36,458 nt of DNA, taken from positions 1 to 36,458 of IMG/VR virus record IMGVR_UViG_3300039456_000011; one strand, given 5' to 3'. The position numbers and the translations under genes are program-made. Positions 17,853-35,523 of the stretch are shown here, piece by piece (position 1 is the stretch's first letter; the number at the start of each line of letters is the position of its first letter). This stretch comes from a virus. The notes beneath the pieces were generated by a model that saw only the letters and a program-made list of their open reading frames with translations, ran no database searches and had not been told where the DNA came from.

Positions 17853-17880
17853 TTTATAACACGCTTTCCGGTTTTCCGGA
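17853..17880 (-). promoter_or_regulatory. Candidate parA promoter overlapped by an octad array
   Basis: Read on the minus strand, TATAAA (17858-17853) lies 17 bases after TTCCGG (17881-17876 region), which is a poor -35. The two CCGG boxes of the array fall on the -35 and spacer. A protein bound there would block RNA polymerase, the usual autoregulation of partition operons. Confidence 0.45.
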
Positions 17881-17886
17881 AATACG
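17868..17886. repeat. Octad-box array 1 (two CCGG boxes and one ACGT box), beside parA
   Basis: CCGG at 17868 and 17876, then ACGT at 17884, each separated by four A/T-rich bases, in exact 8-bp register. A further CCGG stands at 17920. See the other arrays at 26391, 28685, 30162, 31524 and 35488. Confidence 0.85.
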
Positions 17887-18105
17887 TAAGACGAAAAAAT
17901 ATATCTTTTTTATCGGTTTCCGGTTGGTTTATTCCTAACCCACTGAAAAATAAAAGAAAAATAAAATAGCTAAATTATCTACGGGATAGCTTCCGCTTTC
18001 TATTCATGCCACTAGCAAGCTGAAGCGCTGGCGAATCCACCTTTAAAAAGAATATCAACCAACAACGGGCAAGCCAAAAAAAGTATACGAGATTAATTGT
18101 ATAAT

Positions 18106-18310
18106 GTGCATATTTTAGGTACACACAAAAATATATACATGCACAAAATATACATACACACCTACACCCTAAATATACATGTATATTTCGTTCCATTATA
18201 TACGTATATAATGGAACGAAATATACATGTATATTTTGGGTGTGTGTATGCTTTTGTGTGTGTTTTAAATATACATGCTTGCGTTGTGTGTCTTTATAGT
18301 GTACTTTTGT
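18106..18310. other. Extended protelomerase region with repeated AAATATACATG motifs
   Basis: This A/T-rich, non-coding stretch surrounds the telomere palindrome. AAATATACAT recurs at about 18147, 18171, 18219 and 18267, with a near copy at 18131. Outer segments rich in ACACAC on the left face TGTGTG on the right, so the inverted repeat continues imperfectly beyond the central 78 bp. The N15 tos site likewise has flanking inverted repeats outside telRL. Confidence 0.72.
18165..18242. other. Telomere resolution site (telRL-like palindrome)
   Basis: Two 39-base arms, 18165-18203 and 18204-18242, are perfect reverse complements except for one T-T pair (18170/18237). The centre reads CCATTATA (18193-18200), TACGTA, TATAATGG (18207-18214). 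N15 telRL has the same CCATTATA and TATAATGG blocks around a CGCGCG centre. The protelomerase gene starts 101 bases away. Cutting here and joining strands would give a linear plasmid with hairpin ends. Confidence 0.93.
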
Positions 18311-18342
18311 GCATGTTGGTTAATTAATAAGAGGGAATAGAC

Positions 18343-19926
18343 ATGGAAAATCAGAAAAAACGCGCAAGCCAAGGCACTGTCGACCTTGCCGCTGTTATCA
18401 GTGACACGATTGACCGTATTAAAAAAATAGATGGCCACGCTGATTGGGATCAGTCAGAAAAGACACGTAGGCATAAGGTTTTAGCGGAATCAGTTAAAAA
18501 CAAACTGCACGAAGATGGCCGCCGAAGCGATGAAAACAAGGTTTCGCTGGCAACCTATCGCCGTTATTTGACTGACGTTAGAAAAGCGATTACCGCCGAA
18601 AACATGCACCACCATAACCTAGAAAAAAAGTTGGATGTATTGGCGCGGCGGTATCCAAAACACAGCGCTGAATTGCTGGCTATAAAGCGCGGCAACATTA
18701 GCGACACGCGACTGGCACACAAGGCGGCGCTTGAGTCTCTAATCGACGAATCAGAGGCTTACAGTGACTTGAAAGCGATCATTATTGATCATGAAATCAT
18801 GCGTCACTTGTCTATGGCGTCCGCGCAAAAAACGAAACTATCAAACCAGCAGCAAGCGGCCCTTGAAGAAAAGAAACATAACGCTGTCGAAATTGACAAA
18901 GACTGGCTACTGGTTACGACAGAAAGCCTTTTAAAGCCTGATACAGACAGCCAGATCAGCTTTGCGCGCTTAGCGCTTGGTATCGCGTTTGCTACTGGTC
19001 GCCGTGCGATTGAAGTGCTTTATCAGGGCAACTTTGAAGCGGCTGGAAAATATGAGCTCACATTTTCAGGCTTTGCTAAAAAGCGCGGCGGTGCTGATTA
19101 CAGCAACAAAGCGCGAATTTATACCATCGTACCCGCCTCTGACGTGTTAGCCGCGGTTGAACTGCTACGCCAACAGCCAGAAATTGAAGCTATGCGTAAC
19201 GACTTTGGAAGCCTCCCAGAAGGTGAGCGTAACCGCGCGGTTAACCATCGCGCGGCGGCAAACCTAAACAACACCGCAAAACGCGTTTTTGGTGATGAAA
19301 CCCGCGTATTTCGCGACAGCCGCGCCGTATGGGCAAGGTTCGTTTTTGAAGAACATTTTCGCAAAGACCCGCGCTGGAAAAAATTAGACGAAGACGTGTT
19401 CTGGCACCAGCAACTAGGGCACGAAGACCTAGACACCCAGCAAGCGTACAAGCAATTTAAACTAATCGAAGTCGAGCGCGGAGGCGATCAAGACCGCCTT
19501 TCTGCAGTCAAAGCACTGGCCAGAAACCCAGAAGTTATGAAGCGTGGTGCATTACAAAAAATAAACGCCTGGGCGGTTTCAGTGCTCGAAAACGACCCTA
19601 CGGACAAAATCACACAGCATCGAATTATCAGCGAGCTAGGATCTGGCCGGGGCGTGATTAAAGACTGGCTAACACTTGCTGAAGATGCGTTAAACCTTGA
19701 TCCGGTGGCAAATCGCACCAAAAAACACGAAGAAAAGCCGCAAAGCAAAGAAGAAAGCAAACCAGCGGCCCAAATGGATAAACCGCGCATCCGCGCTACT
19801 AAAGACGGCGGCTGGTGGTTGGTGTCTATCGAGATTGGCGGCGCTGAATATGAATACACATACCACGCCGACGAATATGGCCGTGGTGATGCTATGGCCG
19901 CCGCATGGGCTGAGCACGCTGAATAA
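18343..19926 (+). CDS. telN: Protelomerase (telomere resolvase)
   Basis: Enzyme of 527 residues that cuts the replicated telomere palindrome and seals hairpin ends by a tyrosine-recombinase mechanism. Direct matches to what I recall of N15 TelN include TGRRAIEVLYQGNF with GKYELTFSGFAKKR, RVFRDSRAVWAR, DPRWKKLDEDVF and LGHEDLDTQQAYKQFKL. The expected catalytic set is present: Arg 220/221, Lys 246/247, Arg 327, His 360 and Tyr 369. A C-terminal domain (GGWWLVSIEIGGAEYEY) also has a TelN counterpart. It is shorter than TelN (631), mainly in the N-terminal part and the acidic linker. Start ATG with GAGGG upstream. It lies directly beside its likely target at 18165-18242. Confidence 0.97.
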   Translation: MENQKKRASQGTVDLAAVISDTIDRIKKIDGHADWDQSEKTRRHKVLAESVKNKLHEDGRRSDENKVSLATYRRYLTDVRKAITAENMHHHNLEKKLDVLARRYPKHSAELLAIKRGNISDTRLAHKAALESLIDESEAYSDLKAIIIDHEIMRHLSMASAQKTKLSNQQQAALEEKKHNAVEIDKDWLLVTTESLLKPDTDSQISFARLALGIAFATGRRAIEVLYQGNFEAAGKYELTFSGFAKKRGGADYSNKARIYTIVPASDVLAAVELLRQQPEIEAMRNDFGSLPEGERNRAVNHRAAANLNNTAKRVFGDETRVFRDSRAVWARFVFEEHFRKDPRWKKLDEDVFWHQQLGHEDLDTQQAYKQFKLIEVERGGDQDRLSAVKALARNPEVMKRGALQKINAWAVSVLENDPTDKITQHRIISELGSGRGVIKDWLTLAEDALNLDPVANRTKKHEEKPQSKEESKPAAQMDKPRIRATKDGGWWLVSIEIGGAEYEYTYHADEYGRGDAMAAAWAEHAE

Positions 19927-20113
19927 GCGGGCAATGACTCACCCGCCTGACCATTTCGAGCACATGCTCGGAGTGGTCACGCGCAACCCCTAAAACAATA
20001 GCCTCCGGCTGGCCCTGCAGGGCTGGCGACATCGAAACCACATCAAGTATGGCTTGTATTTGAGATACTGAGCGCTGAAGTTCGTCGATCAAACTTTGAT
20101 AATCCGTATGCAT
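19892..20113 (-). CDS. Small unknown helical protein
   Basis: Protein of 73 residues (LIDELQRSVSQIQAILDVV, HSEHVLEMVRRVSHC). AGGGA lies about eight bases before the ATG. It runs against telN and overlaps its last 35 bases. No family recognised. It is one of several short minus-strand genes between telN and repA. Confidence 0.58.
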   Translation of the reverse strand: MHTDYQSLIDELQRSVSQIQAILDVVSMSPALQGQPEAIVLGVARDHSEHVLEMVRRVSHCPLIQRAQPMRRP

Positions 20114-20282
20114 AAATCAATCCCTGTGACAGTTTGTTACAAGATAATTGCGCAAAATTTAACATTCGTACACTGTACAAAACATACACAATGGCAATAT
20201 ATTGACCATTGCCACCAAAAGGGCGCGGTTTGTCCCTTTTATGGCAGTAATAAAACCACAATAATTACAGAGACTGACAACA
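20114..20282. promoter_or_regulatory. Divergent intergenic region with hairpins
   Basis: Lies between the divergent genes at 20113 and 20283. It holds the inverted pair GTAC-A-CTGTAC near 20168-20178, TGGCAAT facing ATTGCCA (about 20192-20215) and AAAAGGG facing CCCTTTT (about 20217-20240). These could be operator sites for the XRE regulator that starts at 20283. No clear -35/-10 pair can be fixed by eye. Confidence 0.4.
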
Positions 20283-20723
20283 ATGACACGAAGCGCCCTA
20301 TGGGCGGCGTTCGGTTATCGACTGAAATGGGCCAGGGAAGCGCGGAAAATCAGCAAGACCGAAGCCGCAGAAAAGTTAACAAACAAACTAAACAGCATAA
20401 AACCGGCTATAAGTCGCCGACATATTGCGTACTGGGAGACAATCGACACCCCAGAAGAGAGCACAACTAAAACAAAGATGAGACCACCCAGACCGCGCGA
20501 AATAATTCACCTGGTCGAAATATATGGCATAAACGGCCTTTGGTTATTTTTGTACGAGCGTGAACCAACGCTATCACCAGAGCCGCCTACACGATCTGCG
20601 CTATACGGGCGGCCAGAGGCCCGCAACGCCTCAGAAATCTGGCTGACGGAGCGCATACAGCGGCTAAATGAATCAGATATAGCCCTATTAGTTGACGCCA
20701 TTGGCGTTGTCCGTAGGATCTGA
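20283..20723 (+). CDS. XRE-like helix-turn-helix regulator
   Basis: Protein of 146 residues. Residues 10-60 (YRLKWAREARKISKTEAAEKL, ISRRHIAYWET) have the spacing of an XRE-type HTH, with the Lys/Arg-rich first helix and the SRRHIAYWE recognition segment. After a basic Pro-rich linker comes REIIHLVEIYGINGLWLFL, a helix often found in phage regulators. It heads a plus-strand group with the two lipoproteins and could control them. The DNA it binds is unknown. Confidence 0.68.
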   Translation: MTRSALWAAFGYRLKWAREARKISKTEAAEKLTNKLNSIKPAISRRHIAYWETIDTPEESTTKTKMRPPRPREIIHLVEIYGINGLWLFLYEREPTLSPEPPTRSALYGRPEARNASEIWLTERIQRLNESDIALLVDAIGVVRRI

Positions 20724-20756
20724 CACAATCGCGATAAATCGACGCAAAGGCACACC

Positions 20757-21035
20757 ATGAAATTTATCGCATTAATCATAAGCGCAGCACTGGCAACGGG
20801 CTGCGCTAACATGCTCGAATCGCAAGAAGGCACCACCGACGTGGGAAAAATGATAACCGGCGGAGGAACGATCAAACTGATACGAGTGCAGCGACCAACG
20901 GGCTACACTGGCGCGATGTATATCAGCGACCAATACGGAATAAATACCAACTATATGTCCATGCCGCCAAGCAAATTAAGAGAACTAAAAAGCCTGATAG
21001 AACAAACTCTGGTGAGCATTGAGGCAAAAAATTGA
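20757..21035 (+). CDS. Predicted lipoprotein
   Basis: Protein of 92 residues with a type II signal peptide: MKFIALIISAALATGC, lipobox LATGC with Cys 16. The mature part contains KLIRVQRPTGYTGAMYISD. It is coupled to the next lipoprotein gene by a four-base overlap (TTGA). Since both lie in the plasmid-maintenance half and not in the late operon, expression in the lysogen is likely, for example for superinfection exclusion. That role is inference. Confidence 0.78.
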   Translation: MKFIALIISAALATGCANMLESQEGTTDVGKMITGGGTIKLIRVQRPTGYTGAMYISDQYGINTNYMSMPPSKLRELKSLIEQTLVSIEAKN

Positions 21036-21541: not shown

Positions 21542-21728
21542 TTTGTCTGCTCCTTGATATTGATGATCTGCATGCAGACTTTAAATCATCAGCCGCCTGG
21601 CCAAGGTCGGTAATTGCGTAGATTAATGATCCCTTATATTCTTCCAAAATCTGTTGATCGCTTACATGCTCTGGCGCACCGACATTGCGACGTAGTCGTT
21701 GAACAAATCGATCAGATCTTTTATTCAT
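21531..21728 (-). CDS. Small unknown protein
   Basis: Protein of 65 residues (MNKRSDRFVQRLRRNV, QQILEEYKGSLIYAITDLGQAADDLKSA), basic at the N-terminus and helical. AGGAGG lies nine bases before the ATG, and the gene overlaps its neighbours by 8 and 11 bases. No family recognised. Confidence 0.66.
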   Translation of the reverse strand: MNKRSDRFVQRLRRNVGAPEHVSDQQILEEYKGSLIYAITDLGQAADDLKSACRSSISRSRQNDV

Positions 21729-22071
21729 CGCGGAACCCTCCTAGTTTATCCGGTAGCGTCTCTACCTGAGCCAGTAAGTGTTCGATAATAATCGCCTGAC
21801 TGGAACCTGACGCCTCTGCCAGATCGGCCAGACGCTGCTTTGCTGGGGCTACTATTTTCACGTTCAGCGGCACCAGATCGAGCTTGTTCTCTGATTTTGG
21901 GCGACCCTGCCCAGGTCGAAGACCACCCGAACCCGGCTTGCGGATATTGATCACACCCGTCAGGGCATGGCCACACGCCGGAACGCCTTCAGGGCATGAC
22001 GTAGGTCGCTTGGCGCTTTGAATCGTCACAGAGCCGTGTACCGGGCAATTAGCTGTATATTTTGCTGTCAT
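21721..22071 (-). CDS. Probable DNA-binding protein: zinc-binding N-terminus plus ribbon-helix-helix-like C-terminus
   Basis: Protein of 116 residues. The N-terminal part has CPVHG, CPEG and CGHA, a likely zinc site. The C-terminal part, LVPLNVKIVAPAKQRLADLAEASGSSQAIIIEHLLAQV, has the strand-helix-helix spacing of a ribbon-helix-helix domain. A basic linker GLRPGQGRPKSENK joins them. AGGTGA precedes the ATG. It could be a plasmid or phage regulator, or a second centromere-type protein. Confidence 0.68.
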   Translation of the reverse strand: MTAKYTANCPVHGSVTIQSAKRPTSCPEGVPACGHALTGVINIRKPGSGGLRPGQGRPKSENKLDLVPLNVKIVAPAKQRLADLAEASGSSQAIIIEHLLAQVETLPDKLGGFRDE

Positions 22072-22388: not shown

Positions 22389-22532
22389 TTACCAAGATAA
22401 CTTTTTGGCGCGCTCTAATATTCGTGCTTGGGCTTCGGCCAATGAAGCCTCTAAAGCCGCTTGCCTTCTGGCTTCGGTCCATTCCATCCACTCCGGGGAA
22501 CCTGGCAACGGGAATTTAATCACGTCAGCCAT
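22389..22532 (-). CDS. Small protein coupled to repA (47 residues)
   Basis: Begins MADVIKFPLPGSPEWMEW and continues as one charged helix (EARRQAALEASLAEAQARILERAK). The ATG overlaps the repA stop by one base (TAATG), so it is translated with RepA. A longer start inside repA is possible but unneeded. Confidence 0.66.
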   Translation of the reverse strand: MADVIKFPLPGSPEWMEWTEARRQAALEASLAEAQARILERAKKLSW

Positions 22533-25500
22533 TACGCCAGCCCCAATGTCATTAAGTTGGCCGGGATGATCTTGCCAAAGCGCTGATCTTTGCATTCGGG
22601 ATCGAACCAGCCACGCGCTAAGCGCATCAAGTTCGGAATAGTCAGCGCCCCGAGCCGGTCGAGCCGGTCCAGCGGTCGTTCAGCGGGTATAAACTGGTCA
22701 CCTGTCGGCTTTTTTAACCATTCGATTACTGATAATAAAATATCTTTTTGCGGGGGGGAGATTTTACTATTGGTTCTTATATTGTGTTCAATAATTTCTC
22801 CCCCCTCGCTGTAACCCGCATGGTTACTGGTTTCGATGCGTGATATTGGTAGTATTGAGCTGCTCTCTGGCTGGCTATTTGGTAGGTCTTGCGTGGCTAA
22901 AAACTCGCTAACGGCGACGCTGTCGTCGTGTAAATCGGCGGTGGTGTCTTGCTGTAGTGCGTTTTCACCAATCGCGGCGCGCGCCGCGCAATAATCGTTT
23001 AATTCAGCGAATTTTTCAGGGTGAAGTCGGTAAAATTGAACGCCGTTTAATTTTTTCGCGTTAATGATGGGTACAAATCGTTCTAACAGGCCTTTGACGA
23101 ATCGTGTGGCGCATGTTGGTACCGCATTAACTTGCGGTCCAATGCGTAGCGCGTTGTATTCGTCGATAGCGGCTTGCGAGCTTGTGAGCATTGCGACAAC
23201 GTCGCGCGCTTGCATAACGCTGTACTCACCCTCTCCTGTTAACGTATCCAGCCCCAGTGTCTCGAAAACCCGGTTTAGGATCTGCCAGCGCGCCATAATT
23301 AACCGGCGCTGTGTTAATACCACGCCCTTTTCGTTTTCCCAGTTTTCGACCTTGCTGACTTGCTCAGCAGTGCCTCGCAGCGTTTCAAGTCGTCTAATTT
23401 TGGTTAGTCCGCGACTGTCTAAAAATTCGATAGTGTCGTCAGTGACATCGACGCCTAAATGTTTTTCGATTTCATAGCGCGCAAGCTGCGCAATTTGTAC
23501 CGGCGTTAATAGCTCCTCTTTTTTGAGTTGCTTGTATTCGTCTTCAGTGGGTGTGGTCGCCGCGTGAATACGATCATGACGCGCGTTTTTAACGATGTCG
23601 CGGTCGTTGTTCATTTGCTCCGCGCCCATTTCTGCGGTGAGGTCGTCAGTGGCGACGGCGTTAATTTTCCAGCCGTCTGCAGCCATCAGCATTAAAGTGT
23701 GGCTTATGTACTCGCTACGTGACCGCGCTTGTGCTGTTACCACGTCCAGATACATATCATCAAAATTCGTGGTACGAATTGTCACGCCGTCGTCAGTGGC
23801 CTGCCAGTTTAATGTCTGACGGCTTGATTCATACGCCGCTAATAAACCGCGTAACAGAGCATCACGATCGGTCTGGTGTGTGTCGTGACTTGGTTGCATA
23901 CCTAATAAAACCGATTTAGCGCCCCGGTCGCGTCGTATCATTTGCATGATATCGGAGGGCACAACAACGCCGTGGAAAAGCGCAAAATGGCAGTCAAACG
24001 ACGCCGCCGCCGCGCGTATACTCACACCCGATGAAATCACCGGGCTATAAATCAACACGTCGACATCAGCCGCAATGCGGTTAGGATCGTCAGAAAATTC
24101 GACGGCGGCTTTATCGCCTTTGGTTTCAGCCGTGATGCACAAAACGCGCGCCTCTGGCCAAGCGGCTTGCACACCTTCGGCAACCATGTGCGCTTTTTTG
24201 ATTGAGTCAGTAGCTACTAAAATACGGTCAGTTTTCTTTTTTGCTGTATCGACAATTTGTTGATAAACAAACGCGACGTTATCACAGTAATTAACCGTCA
24301 AATCTGGCGCCGGTGAGTCAATTTCAATAACGTGTATTGGCTCACCTGGTCGCGCCTGATTTAAAAACGTGATTAAAGAATCGTTGGCGTCCGCGTCAGC
24401 CAGTAACACTTTTTCAGCGGCGCGCGCCGCTGCCACCAGTTTGTTATAGGCTTTTACGGGTGCATGGATAGCGTCTTGCCCTGCCATAACGTGCCGTAAC
24501 ACTTGCGTTGCTTCGTCTACACATAGCAACTCGGCTTGTTTCCAGTACCAGTCAAACTCCTGTCTGACCACGGAGTTTACGCACGTCACCATGCGCGTAT
24601 TCCATGACACGTTTACGGCGTCTAACTCACGATAATGCTTTAGGTCCAGCTCGTTAGACATTTGATTAGCCAACGAAACCCGGTGAACAATCATACCCGC
24701 ACCGCCGTGAGCTTCGCGCATGAGTGGCCCCATTACGCGTTCTGTTTTGCCGGTACCGTGTTTGGCTTTTAAAATGATCGATCCTTTTAAGCTGCGCACT
24801 AGGTCCAGCACAGTACCCGGAATAACGGCGTAACCTTCTTCTGTGATTTCTGCATTAACTTTAATGTGTTGCACGTTATCACCCGCTAGGGCGTCATCAC
24901 TAAAATTCTTAGTCGCTGCGGCCATCGCAAACCGCTGCTTCACGCACCAGCTCAAAAAGCCCTTGATCGTCGCTAACTGTTTCGCGTTGGCGCTGGCTTG
25001 TTTGGGTATTGATTTCAATATCTCACGCGCCACGGCTTGGCGGTTGTATTCGTGCGGTACCAAAGCTGCCCCAGCCGAAGCCGCGCGCTTGGCGGCTTTC
25101 ATAAAGCCGTTTTCGCCAGTCAGTTTTAATAGCTGCAACTTGTTTAAAAACATGTTTTTTTCAGGCGCAAGGCGCAAATCACGCGCGGTTAGCTGCTTAG
25201 CAACGACGCGCAAACCGCCCAACATTTCGAGGTCGTTGTAATCTGTCGGATAGTCGTTAATGCTGAATTCATCAAAGCATGGCGCACTGGCTTTAACTTT
25301 TTTGGCGGTTAATACGCCAGCGAGTTCGAACGCTGCAATAACACCCGCGTTGCCCTTACCTTCTAAAAATTTGAAATGGTCGTTATCCGCGCGAATGACG
25401 TGCTTTTTACTGTCGTATAAATACGCGTAATGTTTAACGCCACGGGTAAGCCCGTTTTTATCAAAACACACCACCACGGCGATATTTTTGCGGCCCGCTA

Positions 25501-26374
25501 ATACGTGGGCTTTATACACACTTGACCCAGTAGCGAAACCCTCGACATAGTCGAGCTGGTCAGCGCTGTGAATGTCACCGATCACGATATGCGCTTGCGA
25601 CATATCAGAGCCGCGCGCGTGGGCTTTACTACCGTCCGGGTAGATACGTTGCTGGCCACAATACGCACCCGCAAAATTGATCATGGGAATGGCTAACCAA
25701 CCGCGCCAGCGTTTACGAAACTTGGTTTCCCCGCCTTTATAAAATTCTTTACCTGCAACCAAACGCGGCCCCATATCGCCACACGCCGCGATCACTTCAG
25801 CCGTGATGCCTTTCTTGCTTGCGTAGGGACATTTTGCAACCTGGGCGGCGTTAGTAATGCCGTGTTCGTATCGAGTTTGGTAGATTTTGCGGCGTTGCGC
25901 GGTGTGCTTTTTTAAACGTCGTTCTTCACGCGCATTTTTTTCGGCCTGCAGTTCGCGTACTTTCTCTTTGCGTAAACGAGCCGTGCGTATTTTATCGCGC
26001 TCGACATCGTTTAACAGCCGCCCGCCTTCGCGCTCGAATAATTCCGTCAGGGCTTCGTAGCCGTGCCAAAACACAGTCGACCCACCGTTGGCGTGGGTAG
26101 TAAATTGAATGATTGGGTAACGTATGCCGTTACGAGCTTCACGCCAGTTTAATTCCATCAAGTGGCGTTGCTTGCGGTCTGTTACCGCGATGTCTTTGTT
26201 TTTAAGTAAACGCCCGGGGGATAATTTAGCCGTGTTCGACTTATACCAGTCGATATCAACTTCAGCCGCCGTGGCGTTAATATCGCTTGAAAACTCGTTT
26301 AACCAGTCTTCATGGTGTGCGTTGTCACCGAAACGATCTTGCCAAAACGTCTTTAAGCCTGTGTGTTTGTCCAT
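22532..26374 (-). CDS. repA: RepA: multidomain plasmid replication protein (primase-helicase)
   Basis: Protein of 1280 residues, near the 1324 of N15 RepA, which initiates and drives replication of the linear plasmid. Residues 120-165 are highly charged. About 180-360 holds a zinc/primase-like segment (CPYASKKGI) and a toprim domain (YVEGFATGSS with E278, VVVCFDKNG, IRADNDH with D330/D332). About 500-900 is a superfamily 2-type helicase: Walker A KAKHGTGKT (537-543 region), LLCVDEAT (620-623), VLLADADAN, VLIYSPVISSGVSI and QMIRRDRGAKSV. The tail carries no motif I know. GGAAG precedes the ATG, and an octad array lies 17 bases upstream. In N15 the origin is within repA; I cannot place one here. 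Confidence 0.92.
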   Translation of the reverse strand: MDKHTGLKTFWQDRFGDNAHHEDWLNEFSSDINATAAEVDIDWYKSNTAKLSPGRLLKNKDIAVTDRKQRHLMELNWREARNGIRYPIIQFTTHANGGSTVFWHGYEALTELFEREGGRLLNDVERDKIRTARLRKEKVRELQAEKNAREERRLKKHTAQRRKIYQTRYEHGITNAAQVAKCPYASKKGITAEVIAACGDMGPRLVAGKEFYKGGETKFRKRWRGWLAIPMINFAGAYCGQQRIYPDGSKAHARGSDMSQAHIVIGDIHSADQLDYVEGFATGSSVYKAHVLAGRKNIAVVVCFDKNGLTRGVKHYAYLYDSKKHVIRADNDHFKFLEGKGNAGVIAAFELAGVLTAKKVKASAPCFDEFSINDYPTDYNDLEMLGGLRVVAKQLTARDLRLAPEKNMFLNKLQLLKLTGENGFMKAAKRAASAGAALVPHEYNRQAVAREILKSIPKQASANAKQLATIKGFLSWCVKQRFAMAAATKNFSDDALAGDNVQHIKVNAEITEEGYAVIPGTVLDLVRSLKGSIILKAKHGTGKTERVMGPLMREAHGGAGMIVHRVSLANQMSNELDLKHYRELDAVNVSWNTRMVTCVNSVVRQEFDWYWKQAELLCVDEATQVLRHVMAGQDAIHAPVKAYNKLVAAARAAEKVLLADADANDSLITFLNQARPGEPIHVIEIDSPAPDLTVNYCDNVAFVYQQIVDTAKKKTDRILVATDSIKKAHMVAEGVQAAWPEARVLCITAETKGDKAAVEFSDDPNRIAADVDVLIYSPVISSGVSIRAAAASFDCHFALFHGVVVPSDIMQMIRRDRGAKSVLLGMQPSHDTHQTDRDALLRGLLAAYESSRQTLNWQATDDGVTIRTTNFDDMYLDVVTAQARSRSEYISHTLMLMAADGWKINAVATDDLTAEMGAEQMNNDRDIVKNARHDRIHAATTPTEDEYKQLKKEELLTPVQIAQLARYEIEKHLGVDVTDDTIEFLDSRGLTKIRRLETLRGTAEQVSKVENWENEKGVVLTQRRLIMARWQILNRVFETLGLDTLTGEGEYSVMQARDVVAMLTSSQAAIDEYNALRIGPQVNAVPTCATRFVKGLLERFVPIINAKKLNGVQFYRLHPEKFAELNDYCAARAAIGENALQQDTTADLHDDSVAVSEFLATQDLPNSQPESSSILPISRIETSNHAGYSEGGEIIEHNIRTNSKISPPQKDILLSVIEWLKKPTGDQFIPAERPLDRLDRLGALTIPNLMRLARGWFDPECKDQRFGKIIPANLMTLGLA

Positions 26375-26390
26375 GCTTCTTCCGCGTCAT

Positions 26391-26426
26391 ACGTAAAACC
26401 GGAAAACCGGAAAACCGGAAAACCGT
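26391..26426. repeat. Octad-box array 2, upstream of repA
   Basis: Boxes ACGT (26391), CCGG (26399, 26407, 26415) and CCGT (26423), each followed by four A/T bases. On the minus strand it stands just before the repA ribosome site, so binding there could limit RepA synthesis. Confidence 0.88.
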
Positions 26427-26433
26427 ATAATAC

Positions 26434-26461
26434 TTGAATTAATGACAGGGAGGGTTACACT
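26434..26461 (+). promoter_or_regulatory. Candidate promoter for a small RNA
   Basis: TTGAAT (26434-26439) and TACACT (26456-26461) are separated by 16 bases on the plus strand, divergent from repA. They would start a transcript at about 26468 that meets a strong terminator about 55 bases on. Confidence 0.5.
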
Positions 26462-28064: not shown

Positions 28065-28685
28065 ATGTTGACAGAAGCCGGTAAAAACAATCTGAGAAGT
28101 TTTATATTTTCAGTGTTTTCAGTACATGCACCGTCTCGCAGCTTTGACTATGCCGCGATACGTGTGCAGTCGTCCGCGCCTGTGTCTGCCCCCATGCCTG
28201 TGACCATGTCACAACTCGAAAACAGGTCATACGTTGCCGCCATTCGCCAGCTATCAACCCCCGCCGCCGCGTGGGTACGTTGGGCGTATGCGAGCCGACA
28301 CCCAGACGCCGCCAATCACGATATGGAAATCGTCGCGCGGAATCTATGGGATGACTACAGCAGCACCCTGCACAGCACCACCGAAGAACAGCGCGAACGA
28401 ATTATGCGACTTGTACAGCCAGCAATGGAGCAAGTCGCTTTCGTTCAGCGTTTAGGAAAAAAGCGATATAGCCGCGCCGATTTGTACGATCTAACGGGCT
28501 GCCCTGAAAGCTCATGGCAGCGCGATATGCAACCGCATTGGAAAGCACTCCAAGACAATCTAAAAAACCAAGACAACGCCGCCTTACGCCGCCTAAGCCT
28601 GATTTTTGACATTGTCGATCAACGTAAAGCGCTTGGGAGCGCTAACGAAATTGCCGCAGATGCACAAATGAGCATTGCGGTTTAA
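28065..28685 (+). CDS. Right-arm early gene, unknown, possible antiterminator
   Basis: Protein of 206 residues with AGGGGG five bases before the ATG. It contains TPAAAWVRWAYASRHPDAANHD and ARNLWDDYSS, then KKRYSRADLYDLTGCPESSWQRD, which could be a helix-turn-helix. The Trp/Arg-rich WVRWAY segment is reminiscent of late antiterminators, and the genome otherwise lacks an obvious Q, but this is weak. It runs in step with the gene before it (13-base gap). Confidence 0.6.
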   Translation: MLTEAGKNNLRSFIFSVFSVHAPSRSFDYAAIRVQSSAPVSAPMPVTMSQLENRSYVAAIRQLSTPAAAWVRWAYASRHPDAANHDMEIVARNLWDDYSSTLHSTTEEQRERIMRLVQPAMEQVAFVQRLGKKRYSRADLYDLTGCPESSWQRDMQPHWKALQDNLKNQDNAALRRLSLIFDIVDQRKALGSANEIAADAQMSIAV

Positions 28686-28728
28686 CGGTTTTCCGGTTTT
28701 CCGGAATTACGTAAAACCGGAACAACGG
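28685..28728. repeat. Octad-box array 3, upstream of the RdgC/FtsK-gamma gene
   Basis: Boxes ACGG (28685), CCGG (28693, 28701), ACGT (28709), CCGG (28717) and ACGG (28725) stand in perfect 8-bp register with four-base A/T-type spacers. It fills the whole gap between the two genes except the ribosome site. Confidence 0.88.
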
Positions 28729-28744
28729 GTAAGGGAAGAAGAAA

Positions 28745-30145
28745 ATGCTTTTAAAACAACTCACGTCATATCAGATCGAAATGCCTACCACGGCCACTGA
28801 CCAGCCAATCGCGCTGGTGCCAACCGAATGGCGCGATCATATCGAACAAAGCGCTCAATCCATGCGCATACGCCCGCTAACGGCGCTACAGCAAACTGGC
28901 TCAGGCTTTGAGCCGCCGTTGCATAAAATAAACAGTGAATACGTTGTGGCCGCCGATTCGTGCGGGTTGTTGTTGCTGTGTTACCGGATTGATACCAAGG
29001 CGATCAACGCCGCCGGCATTAAAGAATCGGTCGAAGCGAAGGCCAAAATCATCGAGCACGAAGAAGGCCGTCGCGTTCGCAAATTAGAGCGCGAAGCAAT
29101 ACACGACGATTTTGTGATAAAAGCCCTTCCGCACATCCAGCCCACGCCAAAACGCATTTTAATATTGCTCGACCTACGCCGGTACCGCGTTTTGATTGGC
29201 ACAAAGTCAGAAGACTTGGCGACGACATTACGCCGCTTATTAGCAGAACACATCGTGCCAGGTTACGAAGTGGAAACCGCTGACGAAAAAGAAACACGCC
29301 GCCCGCGCTTCATCGTCGATAGCAACTGCAAAGGCGACCCGCGCGAACATTACCGACAGTGGATGATTCAAGGTGTTCAAGGCCTGCAACTGCATGACGG
29401 CGCATACCTTGAAAAAGAAGCCTCAAAAAACATCATCGTGACCGGCCAAGCTAATGACGCCCAGGTTATCACCGATGCATTAGATGACGGTTACCAGCCG
29501 TTTCAGGTGTCTGTCAGTGTGATGAATACCGAAGCCGACAGCGTTATCGCTGACGTTGTGCTTGATCGTTTCGGGCAATACACGGCAATACGTATCCCCG
29601 GCCATCTTGAAATCATCAAAAGCACCCACGAAGACGAAAAAGAAGCCGCGCTGGCCGACCTACACGCGAACATGGTGCTCACAGCAGGCACGGCGCACGA
29701 CGTAGAACACGCAGTAAAAGTGGCATTTGGTGACCAGCTTGAAATCGAAGGCATATTAAAAAAAGCACTTGATATGCAGCGAACCGCAATTATTGGAACC
29801 TCTCTAATTTCTAAAGTGATGGCTACCGCGTCTTTAAATATGCCAACTGATTCAACCCAGACCATGACATACAAAGTCGGTCAAGGATCAGAGCCAATCG
29901 CCGCCCATCCTGATGTGATCGAAGTTAATGTTCCGGCTCTAGATGATGAACTTTATCAGAGTGTTCGGAGGTTCGTTGTTGAAAACCAAAAATGTTCAAT
30001 TTCCGGAATTCAGCGCAATTTCAAACTTGGTTACAACCACGCCGCGCGATTAGTTGACGAACTTGAAAGTTGGGGGGTGGTAACGCCGCCTGACAGTTAT
30101 GGACACCGAGACGTTTTAGATAAAAAACCAGAAGGCATTTCTTAA
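28745..30145 (+). CDS. RdgC-like protein fused to an FtsK gamma winged-helix domain
   Basis: Protein of 466 residues. Residues 1 to about 290 follow the plan of RdgC, a ring-shaped DNA-binding protein that limits RecA: MLLKQLTSYQI at the start, VEAKAKIIEHEEGRRVRKLERE followed by ALPHIQP (RdgC has an acidic-basic helix then LLPRAF), ILILLDLRRYRVLIGT and QGLQLHDGAYL. Residues about 400-459 (ELYQSVRRFVVENQKCSISG, GYNHAARLVDELESWGVV, HRDVL) are a clear FtsK gamma domain, the module that reads KOPS on chromosomes. No FtsK motor is present. GGGAAGAAG precedes the ATG. It precedes ssb and follows octad array 3. Confidence 0.84.
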   Translation: MLLKQLTSYQIEMPTTATDQPIALVPTEWRDHIEQSAQSMRIRPLTALQQTGSGFEPPLHKINSEYVVAADSCGLLLLCYRIDTKAINAAGIKESVEAKAKIIEHEEGRRVRKLEREAIHDDFVIKALPHIQPTPKRILILLDLRRYRVLIGTKSEDLATTLRRLLAEHIVPGYEVETADEKETRRPRFIVDSNCKGDPREHYRQWMIQGVQGLQLHDGAYLEKEASKNIIVTGQANDAQVITDALDDGYQPFQVSVSVMNTEADSVIADVVLDRFGQYTAIRIPGHLEIIKSTHEDEKEAALADLHANMVLTAGTAHDVEHAVKVAFGDQLEIEGILKKALDMQRTAIIGTSLISKVMATASLNMPTDSTQTMTYKVGQGSEPIAAHPDVIEVNVPALDDELYQSVRRFVVENQKCSISGIQRNFKLGYNHAARLVDELESWGVVTPPDSYGHRDVLDKKPEGIS

Positions 30146-30161
30146 ACGGATTAATAAAATT

Positions 30162-30213
30162 CCGGTTTTCCGGTTTTCCGGTTTTCCGGTTTTCCGGTTT
30201 TCCGGAATTACGT
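30162..30213. repeat. Octad-box array 4 (six CCGG plus one ACGT), upstream of ssb
   Basis: The longest array: CCGG at 30162, 30170, 30178, 30186, 30194 and 30202, TTTT between each, then AATT and ACGT at 30210. It sits 24 bases before the ssb start. Confidence 0.93.
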
Positions 30214-30236
30214 AAAACAATATAAAGGGGCATACC

Positions 30237-30830
30237 ATGGCACGTAAAAACAGAATTACTTTAATCGGTCACGTTGGCGCGGACCCAGATATTCAAACGT
30301 TTGCGTCAGGCGATAAAGCCGCGCGCATTAGTATAGCAACCGATGAAAGCTATACAGACAAGCAAAGCAATCAGAAAGTCGATGTCACCGAGTGGCACCC
30401 AATCGAGTTTCAAGCCGCACTCGCTGAACGTGTGCAAAAGTACGTAAAGAAGGGCGATCAGCTATACATTGAGGGCAAGTTGCGAACGTATAAAATCGTC
30501 ATTGGCGATAAAAACGTCACGCAACATAAAATCATCGCCACTGATGTCCAGTTTTTATCAAAACGCCGTGATTCAGACCCAGCACATGGCCAACATAATA
30601 ACGGCGGCTATCAGCCAGCGCCGGGTAATCACGGACAAGGCAATCCCCCGCAAAATCCAAACGCGCCGCAACAGGCACCACAACAAAACCAGCAATATGG
30701 CTACTGGCACAGCAACGGTGCACCGTTTAATCAACATCAAGCCGCCGCCGCAAACTATCAGCAATTACAAACATGGCCGCGCGGTACAACACCACCACAA
30801 CAAGCGTATGCGATACAGGGGGTTTACTAA
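30237..30830 (+). CDS. ssb: Single-stranded DNA-binding protein
   Basis: Protein of 197 residues. Residues 1-110 are the OB fold (NRITLIGHVGADPDIQTF, EWHPIEFQAALAERVQKYVKKGDQLYIEGKLRT), as in bacterial SSB. The tail is Gln/Asn/Pro-rich and ends AIQGVY, lacking the acidic DDDIPF-like tip that recruits host partners. AAAGGGG lies six bases upstream of the ATG. It is followed directly by a coupled membrane-protein gene. Confidence 0.94.
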   Translation: MARKNRITLIGHVGADPDIQTFASGDKAARISIATDESYTDKQSNQKVDVTEWHPIEFQAALAERVQKYVKKGDQLYIEGKLRTYKIVIGDKNVTQHKIIATDVQFLSKRRDSDPAHGQHNNGGYQPAPGNHGQGNPPQNPNAPQQAPQQNQQYGYWHSNGAPFNQHQAAAANYQQLQTWPRGTTPPQQAYAIQGVY

Positions 30831-31174
30831 TGGATATCCAAGCGATTTATACCGTGTTGATTTTGGTTTTATTAGTAACTCTCTATTTTTTGGGTGTTGT
30901 GTTATCAAAAAACCAAGATGACCCGATCACGATTGAAATAGAGCCGGTCGAAGATGAAAGCGAGATACTGCGCGAAACAGTTAAAGCGCTGCAGAATTGC
31001 CGCAATGATTTTAACGCCGCCTGTCGTGAATATTGCGTACCGCGCGAAGTAATGGCAAAGCGTCTTGATGCGCGCGGGATCGTCAAAGAATACAACCGCG
31101 CGCGAAATATACTCTCTCAAAGTTTTGGCATTGAGGTGCCCGAGCTGGTGAAAGAAATCGACGTGAGGGCGTGA
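30830..31174 (+). CDS. Small membrane-anchored protein
   Basis: Protein of 114 residues with one N-terminal membrane segment (AIYTVLILVLLVTLYFLGVVL) and a charged helical cytoplasmic part (EILRETVKALQNCRNDFNAAC, EYNRARNIL). The ATG overlaps the ssb stop (TAATG) with AGGGGG upstream. Function unknown. Confidence 0.72.
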   Translation: MDIQAIYTVLILVLLVTLYFLGVVLSKNQDDPITIEIEPVEDESEILRETVKALQNCRNDFNAACREYCVPREVMAKRLDARGIVKEYNRARNILSQSFGIEVPELVKEIDVRA

Positions 31175-31176
31175 TA

Positions 31177-31683
31177 ATGACCGATACAAACAACGCCATG
31201 ACAATTAAAGAAATGGCATTAAAACAACTGCTAAAGCTGCAGCCATGCACAAGCGCTGATTTACGAGAGGCTTGCAACTGGCCAGACCGTCAGCCCGCCA
31301 ACGTTCTAAGCGTGTTGCGACGTGAAGGCCTAGCGGTATTGATCGACGGTGAAAACTTCCTAACTGACGACGGCGTAAAAGCGGCAAATGGGGAAACCCC
31401 ACTAACGCGCCCCGCGCCGCCGGTAGAAATAACCCAGCGTCCAATCAGCAAAAAAGCTCAGACGGTGAAGGCCGATATTCAAAAAGCAAAGACGGCCTTA
31501 GAAAATATTAAATCCAACGAAAACCGGAAAACCGGAAAACCGGAAAGCCGGCCCCGCGAAAGTTTTGCTGGTGACTATCAATTACTTGAACGAATGATAG
31601 AAACATTCGCGAGCGCCGCCGATGATTTAAAGCGTATTAAAAACCGTCTTCAAAAACTGGACGCAACCACAGGGCAGGGCTAA
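31177..31683 (+). CDS. Probable winged-helix protein with an octad array in its coding sequence
   Basis: Protein of 168 residues from the ATG at 31177 (a GTG at 31171 overlaps the previous stop). The first 65 residues (IKEMALKQLLKLQPCTSADLREA, ANVLSVLRREGLAVLIDGENFL) look like a winged helix. A helical C-terminus follows (YQLLERMIETFASAADDLKRIKNRL). Between them the octad repeat encodes NRKTGKPESRP, a flexible basic linker. Function unknown. Confidence 0.7.
   Translation: MTDTNNAMTIKEMALKQLLKLQPCTSADLREACNWPDRQPANVLSVLRREGLAVLIDGENFLTDDGVKAANGETPLTRPAPPVEITQRPISKKAQTVKADIQKAKTALENIKSNENRKTGKPESRPRESFAGDYQLLERMIETFASAADDLKRIKNRLQKLDATTGQG
31524..31551. repeat. Octad-box array 5, inside a coding sequence
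   Basis: CCGG at 31524, 31532, 31540 and 31548 in 8-bp register with AAAA-type spacers. It has no ACGT box, unlike the intergenic arrays. Confidence 0.85.
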
Positions 31684-32556: not shown

Positions 32557-32564
32557 GGTGACAC

Positions 32565-32735
32565 ATGGCTGAGATTGAAAAAAAAATCGAAATAGCTAAA
32601 AAAATAATCGAACTACTCAAGAAATACGATGATGTCGAGCTTCATAAGTTTGATGACGGCGGCGTGATTGATTTTCCCGGAGTAAGTATAAGCTTTGAAT
32701 TTGACAAGGTGACTGATACCGAAGTGTCGCTATAA
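32565..32735 (+). CDS. Cassette gene, 56-residue acidic protein
   Basis: A short gene: a charged helix (AEIEKKIEIAKKIIELLKKY) then strands (VIDFPGVSISFEFDKV). The ATG follows AGGTG, which overlaps the R' box of site 2. The stop TAA is inside the TATAAC of site 3. Function unknown. Confidence 0.68.
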   Translation: MAEIEKKIEIAKKIIELLKKYDDVELHKFDDGGVIDFPGVSISFEFDKVTDTEVSL

Positions 32736-32789
32736 CCCGGCGTTAATGGGCGGCGCTCCAGCGCCGTCCAGATTGCACGCTTTGTTATA
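32731..32789 (+). other. attC-like site 3
   Basis: Bounded by TATAAC (32731) and GTTATA (32784). GGCGGCGC pairs with GCGCCGTCC around TCCA, with unpaired spacers and extra-helical bases nearer the ends, the attC folding pattern. Confidence 0.8.
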
Positions 32790-32917
32790 AATCTTGAAAG
32801 GGGAATCCGTAGGCTGATACGGGCAGGGCTAAGACTGCGGGCAAAGGGCCAAAAACTTAGCTGACACCGACGCGCCATGCTGGGGATCAGTGCCAGCCCC
32901 CTTTCAAGATTTATAAC
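32784..32917. ncRNA. Non-coding cassette, candidate structured RNA
   Basis: Perfect 20-base inverted repeats (32784-32803 and 32898-32917) enclose 94 bases with no reading frame. Inside, CCGTA pairs with TACGG (about 32806-32823), GCTAAG with CTTAGC (about 32829-32863) and GCTGG with CCAGC (about 32879-32897), giving a three-arm fold on a long stem. I do not recognise an RNA class. A miniature inverted-repeat element is the main alternative. Confidence 0.55.
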
Positions 32918-32973
32918 CAAGATTTTAACGGGCTGGAGCGACAGCGACAGTCCACTTTGAAGGAATTGTTATA
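32912..32973 (+). other. attC-like site 4
   Basis: Bounded by TATAAC (32912) and GTTATA (32968). AACGGGCTG (32927) and TCCACTTTGA (32951) match site 1. The next gene's ATG uses the last A of the R' box. Confidence 0.78.
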
Positions 32974-33167
32974 TGGCTAGTCGTCGTGAAATAAAGCTTC
33001 AAAATCAAGTTCTCTTTCGTGATGAGAAGATATCCGATCTTAAAAATAGATCGGATAAAGCTTGGGAAATCATCAAGGACATATTTGATAAACACGAAGC
33101 TGGTGATGATATCGACAGCAAGCTAGCAAAAGCACTAAACATACTGGCCGAACACGAAGCCATATAA
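32973..33167 (+). CDS. Cassette gene, 64-residue helical protein
   Basis: Highly charged and helical (SRREIKLQNQVLFRDEKISDL, DKAWEIIKDIFDKHEAGDD), likely coiled-coil. AAGGA inside attC site 4 serves as ribosome site. The stop TAA is inside the TATAAC of site 5. No family recognised. Confidence 0.72.
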   Translation: MASRREIKLQNQVLFRDEKISDLKNRSDKAWEIIKDIFDKHEAGDDIDSKLAKALNILAEHEAI

Positions 33168-33218
33168 CAAAGAGTTCGCGCGTCGAGGTACGAGATCGAC
33201 GCGTAACGAGGTGTTATT
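33163..33218 (+). other. attC-like site 5
   Basis: Bounded by TATAAC (33163) and GTTATT (33213). GCGTCGA (left) pairs with TCGACGC (right) around a short loop, with two extra-helical bases on the left arm and unpaired spacers outside. Confidence 0.78.
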
Positions 33219-33230
33219 TAAGGGGGTTAA

Positions 33231-33503
33231 ATGTCAAAAGATCTTCATCTAAATCTAAAGGGCTGCTATTTCGATGATATAGCAGCAAAAAAAAAGCCCT
33301 TTGAATATCGCTTAAAAAATGAATATTGGCGTCGTCGATTAGAGGGCCGACATTACGACAATATACATATTAAAAAAGGATATCCGAAGGCCACCGACAC
33401 AAGCAGAATAATCACAAAGCCATACCGTGGTTATGAAGAGCAAACAATCACACACCCGCACTTTGGGCCTTTACCGGTTGAGGTTTATGCAATCCATGTC
33501 TAA
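33231..33503 (+). CDS. ASCH-domain protein
   Basis: Protein of 90 residues that fits the ASCH (PUA-like) family: LHLNLKGCYFDDIAAKKKPFEYRL, YWRRRLEGRHYDNIHIKKGYP and THPHFGPLPVEVYAIHV. Such domains bind RNA or modified nucleotides. AAGGGGG lies four bases upstream of the ATG. It follows attC site 5 but no attC is seen after it. Confidence 0.85.
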   Translation: MSKDLHLNLKGCYFDDIAAKKKPFEYRLKNEYWRRRLEGRHYDNIHIKKGYPKATDTSRIITKPYRGYEEQTITHPHFGPLPVEVYAIHV

Positions 33504-33699
33504 TTCAACCAACAAAACAAATTTATCGGAAAATTTAGCAAAAAGAATTAGAGCAGCGTTAGGTGATTTTAATGATGACCATGAACCAGTTACGGAATTG
33601 GTTAAGTCAGTCGCCCGCCGATTATCTGCAATCGAAACCGCCAAGAACTTAGGTTCTGATATTGATCGAATGCGAGAAAAACACTGTAAAACAAGCTAA
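33496..33699 (+). CDS. Small unknown protein downstream of the ASCH gene
   Basis: Protein of 67 residues (LAKRIRAALGDFNDDHEPVTELVKSVARRLSAIETAKNLG) starting eight bases before the ASCH stop, so coupled to it. Helical, function unknown. A longer upstream start exists but would run through the ASCH gene in another frame. Confidence 0.6.
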   Translation: MSNSTNKTNLSENLAKRIRAALGDFNDDHEPVTELVKSVARRLSAIETAKNLGSDIDRMREKHCKTS

Positions 33700-33764
33700 T
33701 TACTACTTAATTAAATTATTTTGCTACTTAAGTATTTACATGTCATATAAAAAACGGCATTTTT

Positions 33765-33791
33765 TCTATACTGCGAAAAATTCTGTATAGA
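33765..33791. promoter_or_regulatory. Inverted repeat around a TATACT element, candidate late promoter
   Basis: TCTATAC (33765-33771) and GTATAGA (33785-33791) face each other, and TATACT at 33767 could be a -10. No good -35 is present, so an activator may be needed. Confidence 0.42.
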
Positions 33792-33833
33792 GGTCTATCA
33801 CATCGAGAGAGGCCCACATGTAAAACAATCTTT

Positions 33834-33858
33834 AAACCGGCCTTGCGCCGGTTTTTTT
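33834..33858 (+). terminator. Leader terminator before the lysis genes
   Basis: AAACCGGC (33834-33841) pairs with GCCGGTTT (33847-33854) and T continues to 33858. It lies between the candidate late promoter and the holin gene, like lambda tR' downstream of pR'. Confidence 0.84.
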
Positions 33859-33905
33859 ATGTCGCGCATTCGCGCTGGGTAGTCACCCAATAACGAGATG
33901 GTCAG

Positions 33906-34220
33906 ATGCCTGAGAAAGAAACAATAGACACGACAGTCGGTTTTTGGGCTGACAATCATTTGTATATTTCCATGGCGGTTTTTATGTCTGTAGTAATTGC
34001 TTATAGATTAGTAGGCACGGAGCCAATCAATATTCGCCGCTTAGCTGGCGAATTGATTCTGGCTTTAGTTGGCGCGGGTGTATTTCACGCGCTAGGCCTT
34101 CTTAAGGGGCTTTCTGGCCCTGAGTATTGGCTAATGATATTTCTTGCTGCCATGGGCGGTTTACGCTCGATTGAGTGGTCTTTAAAAGTGTTTATTGCGT
34201 TAAAAAAGGTGTCTATCTAA
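33906..34220 (+). CDS. Holin
   Basis: Membrane protein of 104 residues with three hydrophobic segments (about 18-36, 47-66 and 72-88; ISMAVFMSVVIAYRLV, ELILALVGAGVFHALGLL, YWLMIFLAAMGGL) and a basic C-terminus. It is directly followed by the endolysin (TAATG overlap). It would open the inner membrane at the end of the lytic cycle. The family cannot be named with confidence. Confidence 0.83.
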   Translation: MPEKETIDTTVGFWADNHLYISMAVFMSVVIAYRLVGTEPINIRRLAGELILALVGAGVFHALGLLKGLSGPEYWLMIFLAAMGGLRSIEWSLKVFIALKKVSI

Positions 34221-34651
34221 TGTCAGGTTTAAAGTTTGGTAAACGTTCTGAATCAAACTTACAGACCTGTGATGACCGCCTTCAGCGAATAGCGCGCCGG
34301 GTGTTGTCTTATGGTGTGACTGATTTTTCAGTAATTGAAGGCCATCGCCCGTTAGAACGCCAGCTATCCCTTTATCACGCCGGTAAGAGTCAGATCGACG
34401 GCGTAAACAAAAAGGGTAAGCATAACGAATACCCAAGCCACGCCATCGACGTTTTGCCATATCCTGCCGTCGTTAACGGCGTCGACGTATGGGCCGATAA
34501 ACAGCGCTTTTGTGTATTAGCCGGTTTATTTATGGCCGCCGCCGTAGAAGAAGGCGTGGCTATCCGGTGGGGCGGCGATTGGGATAACGATGGCAATAAC
34601 GCTGACAGCAACTTTAACGACTTACCACACATCGAATTAATAGAGGCCTAA
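34220..34651 (+). CDS. Endolysin, M15 metallopeptidase family
   Basis: Protein of 143 residues that cuts the peptide bridges of peptidoglycan. The zinc ligands fit the VanY/M15 family: YPSHAIDVLPY (H74, D77) and DLPHIEL (H137), with SVIEGHRPLERQLSLYHAGKS and IRWGGDWDNDG as in L-Ala-D-Glu endopeptidase endolysins. There is no signal peptide, so it relies on the holin. The ATG at 34220 overlaps the holin stop by one base. Confidence 0.93.
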   Translation: MSGLKFGKRSESNLQTCDDRLQRIARRVLSYGVTDFSVIEGHRPLERQLSLYHAGKSQIDGVNKKGKHNEYPSHAIDVLPYPAVVNGVDVWADKQRFCVLAGLFMAAAVEEGVAIRWGGDWDNDGNNADSNFNDLPHIELIEA

Positions 34652-34652
34652 A

Positions 34653-35204
34653 ATGAAATCAATAATCACCGTCATGATCACTATGGCATTGTTTGCCTGT
34701 GCATCATCACCAGCATTGGCCGCCAACGGCGAAAAGACAGCGTTTATGTTTGGCCTACTGGATAGCCTGGTCATTAATAAAGCCACTGATTCGACAGTAG
34801 CAAATGACAAAGAAACAGAGAAAGAGACCACGGTAAATGATTCAGTATTAGCAGCACCAAAACCAGTTACTGACAGTAATCATAACGCCGATGGCGCATT
34901 AGTTGCCGCCGCGCTGGTTGGGCTGGTCGTTAATAAATATCCGATTGGTTCGACAGTGGTGGCATTACTCATTGCGCTGATGCCACTGCTTCAGTTATTG
35001 GCTAACAGTACACCAAACCCAAAAGACAACGCGTTATTAATATTTATTAATAAGGTGCTGCAATCGTTAACACTGACCAGCTCAAAGAATCAAATTAACA
35101 CAGCGTCATGGTCGACATTATTAACTACCCGGCCAAAGCATTGGCCCGATGCGATCCGGACAGAGGATGTGTTGAAGGTGCACAAGAAAGTAACAGATAA
35201 CTGA
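34653..35204 (+). CDS. Secreted or membrane protein in the spanin position, unknown
   Basis: Protein of 183 residues with a signal peptide (MKSIITVMITMALFACASSPALA, likely cut after ALA) and two hydrophobic segments around 82-118 (ALVAAALVGLVVN, TVVALLIALMPLLQLLA). AGAGG precedes the ATG. It lies where Rz-like spanin genes sit but lacks the coiled-coil of Rz, so a spanin role is unproven. Confidence 0.7.
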   Translation: MKSIITVMITMALFACASSPALAANGEKTAFMFGLLDSLVINKATDSTVANDKETEKETTVNDSVLAAPKPVTDSNHNADGALVAAALVGLVVNKYPIGSTVVALLIALMPLLQLLANSTPNPKDNALLIFINKVLQSLTLTSSKNQINTASWSTLLTTRPKHWPDAIRTEDVLKVHKKVTDN

Positions 35205-35487
35205 CTTCCCCAGCGCGGCCACCCACCGCGCAATCTCTAACCACTTCGGTGGTTTCCCCCGCCGTCTAAGTCAGGCTACCCACTTGGCTTAGGCGGCTCC
35301 CTTACTAAAAGTTAAGGTAAGAATGTTTTTTAATAATGGTTATTATTGGTTAAGAAATACCTTTAAAATCAACGGGTTATACACGACACCCCCTAGTCTA
35401 GGTTCTTCCCAGAACCCCCCACCACGTGGGCTAGATGGGCACGGAAAGTGTGTAGCTAAGGGTAAAAAAAATTAAAGCGTTTCCGTT
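35205..35487. other. Non-coding hairpin-rich region, likely cos
   Basis: No gene. Four hairpins: AACCAC-TTCG-GTGGTT (35239-35254); a ten-base arm 35261-35270 with 35288-35297 (one G-T pair); GGTTCT-TCCC-AGAACC (35401-35416); CCCAC-CAC-GTGGG (35418-35430). Lambda and N15 have cos in this place, between the lysis genes and the small terminase gene. The cut site itself cannot be identified from a circular assembly. Confidence 0.58.
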
Positions 35488-35523
35488 TCCGTTTTACGGA
35501 AAACCGGAAAACCGGAATTACGT
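35488..35523. repeat. Octad-box array 6, overlapping the terS translation start
   Basis: Boxes TCCG (35488), ACGG (35496), CCGG (35504, 35512) and ACGT (35520), with four-base spacers. The array ends three bases before the terS ATG and covers its ribosome site region. Confidence 0.88.

Follow-up and report, generated by a model that had tools for sequence, protein, structure and literature searches.

Tetramer boxes arrayed in 8-bp steps, with spacers of 4 bp between them, are the typical sites of ribbon-helix-helix (RHH) proteins, iterons being about 20 bp long; in the case of the repressor MetJ, adjacent RHH dimers sit at a period of 8 bp. Among partition systems, the RHH proteins ParG and omega are known to occupy arrays of this kind in the promoters that drive their own genes (PMC7308502; PMC9499535). 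Omega of pSM19035 has six parS sites of 7-10 heptads that overlap the copS, delta and omega promoters, and activation of ParA requires at least 4 contiguous repeats (PMC9499535). In the telomere phage N15, Sop is reported to have a regulatory part in the expression of late genes (Ravin et al. 2008, cited in PMC11652158). Here we analyze the IMG/VR virus record IMGVR_UViG_3300039456_000011, 36458 bases long and referred to as a whole as the window, in which six arrays of such boxes are scattered. Judging from sequence comparison, it is highly probable that the window encodes a ParF/ParG-type (class Ib) partition system and that the six arrays are the sites of the small ParA partner, acting both as a dispersed centromere and as gene operators.

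Array 1 (17857..17890) consists of CCGG, CCGG and ACGT at 17868, 17876 and 17884, precedes the start of parA by 37 bp and overlaps a weak promoter-like site. Array 2 (26388..26435), with ACGT, three CCGG and CCGT (26391-26423), is followed after 16 bp by the start of repA, and array 3 (28674..28731), with ACGG, two CCGG, ACGT and CCGG (28685-28717), is found in the Q-rdgC interval, 24 bp ahead of the start of rdgC. The longest, array 4 (30143..30224), has six CCGG and one ACGT (30162-30210) and ends 23 bp before the start of ssb; array 5 (31515..31554) has four CCGG (31524-31548), 130 bp before ORF (open reading frame) 31686; and array 6 (35485..35532), with ACGG, two CCGG and ACGT (35496-35520), ends 3 bp before the terS start codon. 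Thus, for five of the six arrays, the array end lies 3-37 bp ahead of a start codon, that of parA, repA, rdgC, ssb or terS.

The spacing is far from what chance would give. CCGG pairs at distance 8 number 13 in the window, against 0.4-0.7 expected from Markov-1 to -3 sequences, with 8 pairs at 16, 5 at 24 and 0-2 at the other distances up to 40; CCGG-W4-CCGG occurs 12 times, against at most 0.1 expected. A first-pass annotation of this DNA had listed the six arrays, and all are present, although position 35488 reads TCCG and the last array properly starts at 35496. The exact 8-bp register that it described is true inside each array but is not shared between arrays across the genome, while its TACGTA-like element does fall in register, as ACGT, in five of the six. 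It had also placed the arrays before genes; this is so for parA, repA, rdgC, ssb and terS, but the array at 31524 precedes no recognised gene.

ParA (17156..17830, minus strand, 224 amino acids; Pfam AAA_31/CbiA) is of the ParF type, its phmmer matches including ParF of TP228 (4dzz, E 8e-22 over residues 7-220) and the ParA 5u1g (E 4e-22). As in class Ib systems, this ParA is short and lacks an N-terminal DNA-binding helix-turn-helix (HTH) domain, a small partner matching a ParG profile is encoded directly downstream, and tetramer boxes with 4-bp A/T-rich spacers lie upstream of the par operon. The partner, a candidate RHH centromere-binding protein of 123 amino acids (16785..17156, minus strand), has a start that overlaps the parA stop. 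Its family was aligned from 32 relatives, of which 23 display a weak match to Pfam Antitox_RHH and all 32 match PHROG 15913 (unknown function). Comparison of this family with a plasmid ParG alignment using hhalign gave a probability of 88-91% (E 1-3e-6), the match spanning the ribbon, both helices and the N-terminal LSxxRPSR motif; the ParG alignment is small and includes TP228 ParG (sequence checked against 1p94), and the unrelated 21721 protein reached 1%. The AlphaFold2 model of the partner shows an extended strand followed by helices 65-78 and 83-105, with good local and poor global confidence. Plasmids with ParG carry ACTC/GAGT boxes on the same 8-bp register, only around parA-parG. The ParG-type layout and partner proposed earlier are supported by the ParF-like ParA, the profile match and the shared register.

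Megablast of the right half of the window against phages, tblastn of the partner against phages, and pattern-based scans with RdgC and with the partner gave no relatives, and tblastn of the partner against plasmids gave one 33% match, to a Pseudomonas corrugata phage-plasmid. With a protelomerase profile, some 60 relatives were recovered among viral and genome contigs; they come from Pseudomonas, Stutzerimonas, Halomonas and Vibrio, from a Spirulina assembly and from metagenomes. The comparison set comprised whole contigs of 35 of these relatives plus VP882, phiHAP-1, MAR, VP58.5 and VHML, and a parA homologue is present in all 40; contig G034 was excluded from the counts because it is too distant and AT-rich. 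Tetramer counts revealed that nearly all relatives repeat tetramers at distance 8, mostly other than CCGG. Arrays were found by expectation-maximisation, using a palindromic model with at least three 8-bp units (box plus A/T spacer), a register rule based on the A/T spacers and a threshold set above ten Markov-3 shuffles. This yielded 227 arrays in the 40 genomes, 3-10 per genome, with a mean of 5.7 boxes, and the boxes fell into two classes, GNNC and NCGN. GNNC boxes are GTAC, GCAC, GGAC or GAAC/GCGC/GAGC, most genomes having GTAC, GAAC or GGAC; NCGN boxes are CCGG/ACGT in the window, ACGC/CCGC/ACGT in G001 and G002, and ACGC/GCGC in G008, G009, G018 and G028.

Counting an array as upstream when within 350 bp of a gene, we found one upstream of parA in 40/40 genomes (2.8 expected by random placement), of repA in 35/39 (2.8 expected), of terS in 34/39 (2.6 expected), of rdgC in all five genomes having it (0.5 expected) and of ssb in 2/2, the second being G001, the nearest relative (0.2 expected). 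No array was found upstream of terL (39 genomes), cI (38), CII (39), Q (35), the tape measure gene (40) or tail gene D (37). In the records of phiHAP-1, MAR, VP58.5 and VHML the array missing upstream of terS was found at the opposite end, beyond the packaging end. The 8-bp period was also assessed by re-scanning with shifted unit spacing, which gave spurious matches at 6 and 12 bp because 8-bp units overlap themselves or follow codons; this control was superseded by an autocorrelation free of position weight matrices, in which base identity was scored at each lag over the 220 bp that precede a gene. The autocorrelation has its maximum at lag 8 for parA, repA and terS (z 6.6, 4.4 and 5.3, respectively), and upstream of the terL, tape measure and CII genes there is no lag-8 peak. 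The prediction that related genomes would carry arrays at the same genes was in this way confirmed for parA, repA, terS, rdgC and ssb.

The terS array is often the longest (8-10 boxes) and is split by a hairpin, CCTTTC...GAAAGG (phiHAP-1 L011, 39131-39210; L079-L145); it adjoins the packaging end of virion DNA. Its length, hairpin and location make a role in packaging control or termination possible.

The same positions bear on a different reading, in which the parA array, perhaps together with the long ssb array, is parS and the other arrays are operators of a regulon having no part in segregation. Arrays always stand directly before genes and hardly elsewhere, as would be expected of operators, and the restriction of boxes to parA-parG in ParG plasmids points the same way; array 4 would be the best candidate for a single-site parS. 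However, the distal arrays often have more boxes than the parA array (seven before ssb; 8-10 before terS in relatives), and the distal sites of N15 serve as centromere (PMC7205306). We consider this reading possible but rather unlikely, although sequence does not separate a scattered centromere from regulon operators with one parS at parA.

We then asked which protein the boxes follow. Box distances gave Mantel values of 0.65 with the partner ribbon strand, 0.63 with ParA and 0.60 with the whole partner, compared with 0.49 for CII, 0.39 for protelomerase and 0.36 for RepA. When the box class was called independently for each array, leaving out close kin, the parA and repA arrays had the same class in 34/38 genomes (Fisher 8e-5, kinship ignored) and the parA and terS arrays in 36/38 (Fisher 3e-6, kinship ignored). 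Such agreement between arrays is the trace expected of a trans-acting protein. RepA, binding the arrays as iterons, or a CII-like activator would be universal enough to be that protein, occurring in 36 and 39 of the 40 genomes, respectively; nevertheless, once the partner strand is held constant, box type is left unexplained by either (0.03 for RepA, 0.17 for CII), while the strand retains 0.58 with RepA held constant and 0.51 with CII held constant. In addition, 8-bp tetramer arrays with 4-bp spacers have the layout of RHH sites and not that of ~20-bp iterons or CII sites, and we judge binding by one of these proteins improbable.

Even less credit can be given to a second RHH-like protein, encoded at 21721-22071, which the first-pass annotation had named as an alternative binder. 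To the eye it resembles an RHH protein (VPLNVKIVAPAKQRLADLAEASGSS), and it weakly matches RepB-RCR_reg, but it is without a homologue in any of the 40 array-bearing relatives and does not match the ParG profile. The N-terminus of this putative RHH protein contains a cysteine. Finally, the idea that the arrays are methylation or restriction features or functionless repeats, suggested by CCGG being a common methyltransferase site (HpaII-type) and by methyltransferases in some relatives, is contradicted by the relatives, whose tetramer is not CCGG while register and positions persist, would give no reason for the co-variation of boxes with the partner, and can practically be discarded.

ParA, whose Mantel value is close to that of the partner, can be distinguished from it in two genomes. 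The ParA proteins of G033 and G022 are 82% identical to ParA of the GAAC group and 66-68% identical to those of G023 and G038, but both genomes keep the partner (81-87%), the protelomerase and the boxes of G023/G038. In this natural ParA exchange, as the alignments present it, box type follows the partner and not ParA. The par loci concerned, L125 (G033) and L140 (G022), display an apparent exchange of parA alone, breaking the linkage of parA to its partner. Within the partner, the residue with which helix 1 begins (in the window protein, Lys68) is His in 34/34 GNNC partners and Ala or Lys in 7/7 NCGN partners (His in 0/7), and the ParA tree requires at least two class changes, that is, at least two origins of NCGN. 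The claim that one protein serves all arrays is supported: the parA, repA and terS boxes change together, track the partner strand and stay with the partner when ParA is swapped.

Under the class Ib reading with a dispersed centromere, which we prefer, the 16785-17156 protein would bind the palindrome-like tetramer boxes cooperatively as dimers, one dimer per 8 bp, and all six arrays would be its sites. Once loaded, the arrays of the prophage (a linear plasmid) would be handles for ParA and jointly serve as a dispersed centromere moved over the nucleoid, while each would block or tune the adjacent promoter or start region. As five of the arrays end 3-37 bp from start codons, the same protein should also repress or tune the genes concerned; the par operon and the replication, recombination/ssb and packaging genes may in this manner come under one protein, whose level would link copy number, segregation and lytic entry. 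Binding, centromere function and repression by the partner are what we infer from this arrangement, and the data suggest that a small partition protein may both segregate the prophage and control the genes fronted by arrays.

Several observations weigh against it. The parA array of the window has just three good boxes, and array 5 sits within an unconserved ORF (31171-31683), for which none of the 40 relatives has a homologue. Class calls are mixed in the GAAC/GCGC group, to which all disagreements in class belong. The window partner has no significant Pfam match on its own, and its family profile gave chance matches only against PDB sequences. AlphaFold2 monomers, modelled for the window protein and for a partner of the Pseudomonas type (pTM, the predicted template modelling score, 0.38 and 0.47) had no RHH match among those listed by Foldseek/VIA, an obligate dimer having been folded here as a monomer.

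Concerning the rest of the window, parA and the protelomerase gene (18343..19926, plus strand; Pfam ResT-TelK_cat, E 2e-24) flank a telomere-resolution palindrome of 82 bp with 3 mismatches (18163..18244). RepA (22532..26374, minus strand), downstream of array 2, is of the N15/VP882 type, with tblastn matches to RepA of phiHAP-1, VP882, PY54 and N15. Downstream of array 3 is RdgC (28745..30145, plus strand; Pfam RdgC, E 2e-18) with a C-terminal FtsK-gamma domain (FtsK_gamma, E 2e-21), the domain that in FtsK reads KOPS (FtsK orienting polar sequences); the fusion is also present in G001. Array 4 is followed by the single-strand binding protein gene ssb (30237..30830, plus strand; Pfam SSB, E 8e-24), and array 6 by the terminase small subunit gene terS (35527..36087, plus strand; tblastn 56% to G001/G002 and 40% to MAR terS). 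A repressor, a CII-like protein and Q are also encoded, and no Rfam family was found in 16000-36458.

Among the contigs recovered, L144 (G034, an IMG/VR contig of 44.7 kb) is a distant telomere phage with repeats of the TGTT-TAAA-TGTT type, apparently also in an 8-bp step, and in its partner the helices are separated by an insert. L015 (contig NZ_JAIHOM010000047 of Spirulina subsalsa) is a telomere phage of the VP882/phiHAP-1 type in a cyanobacterial assembly, and probably derives from a contaminating bacterium. The P. corrugata plasmid pPcorr-B21-055 (L078; 75 kb, annotated circular) has parA, the partner and phage tail genes, which gives it the look of a phage-plasmid belonging to this group.

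Partition of the ParG type with box arrays is already known, and so are the dispersed SopB sites of N15; what would be new is a ParF/ParG partition with dispersed, co-evolving arrays fronting genes in dozens of telomere phages, including the model phages VP882 and phiHAP-1. Such arrays are not mentioned in the passages retrieved from papers on VP882-like and telomere phages (PMC12042878, PMC12324486, PMC10432266, PMC13251360, PMC11054321), and subscription literature may hold an earlier mention. For the telomere phage clade as a whole (Hapunavirus, Vhmlvirus and many Pseudomonas, Halomonas, Vibrio and marine phages), we lean towards one ParG-like protein being both global regulator and partition protein, its DNA code repeatedly rewritten together with all arrays. 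If so, these phages constitute a natural collection of RHH-array pairs orthogonal to one another, as well as of incompatibility groups among phages, and segregation machinery as controller of a phage regulon becomes testable. The approximately 40 genomes and more than 200 arrays also provide a comparative data set for RHH specificity, in which a single residue, the one that opens helix 1, already splits GNNC from NCGN, and research on VP882 gains specific predicted sites in front of repA, terS, lysis-side genes and parA.

Compared with known systems, the window resembles TP228 parFGH, whose parH and operator consist of tetramer boxes with A/T-rich spacers, in its ParF-like ParA, adjacent small and probably RHH-type partner, and tetramer boxes on an 8-bp register before parA (PMC7308502), the partner being related to ParG at the profile level. 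It differs in that the plasmids have one compact site at the par locus, while the phages have 3-10 scattered arrays spread over replication, recombination, lysis-side and packaging genes; in that the phage boxes are GNNC or NCGN instead of the plasmid tetramers; and in the longer C-terminus of the phage partner. As proposed for the phages, a single RHH protein in pSM19035 delta/omega ties segregation to copy-number and other promoters by way of several contiguous-repeat sites, and its minimum of four repeats fits phage arrays of four to ten boxes; nonetheless, it has 7-bp heptads, belongs to a Gram-positive theta plasmid and lacks phage genes. The met boxes of MetJ share the tandem 8-bp RHH sites and the period of neighbouring dimers, but MetJ is a chromosomal metabolic repressor that has no ParA. 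N15 is likewise a telomere phage with a homologous RepA, and its centromere sites are scattered at regulatory places. Its SopB is an HTH-type ParB using 18-bp inverted repeats with a class Ia SopA that carries an N-terminal HTH, unlike the 123-amino-acid partner with a ParG-type profile and the 224-amino-acid ParA described here; N15 yields next to no score with the RHH array scheme, and the N15 inverted-repeat motif, with which the window was not searched, yields N15 sites in N15 only. As the first-pass annotation had anticipated, the four SopB inverted repeats lie near genes of the kind seen here, in the 5' end of repA, immediately past Q, 38 bp ahead of the annotated late promoter and ahead of gp59; thus, in related phages, two centromere proteins of unrelated origin would have come to sit at comparable regulatory positions.

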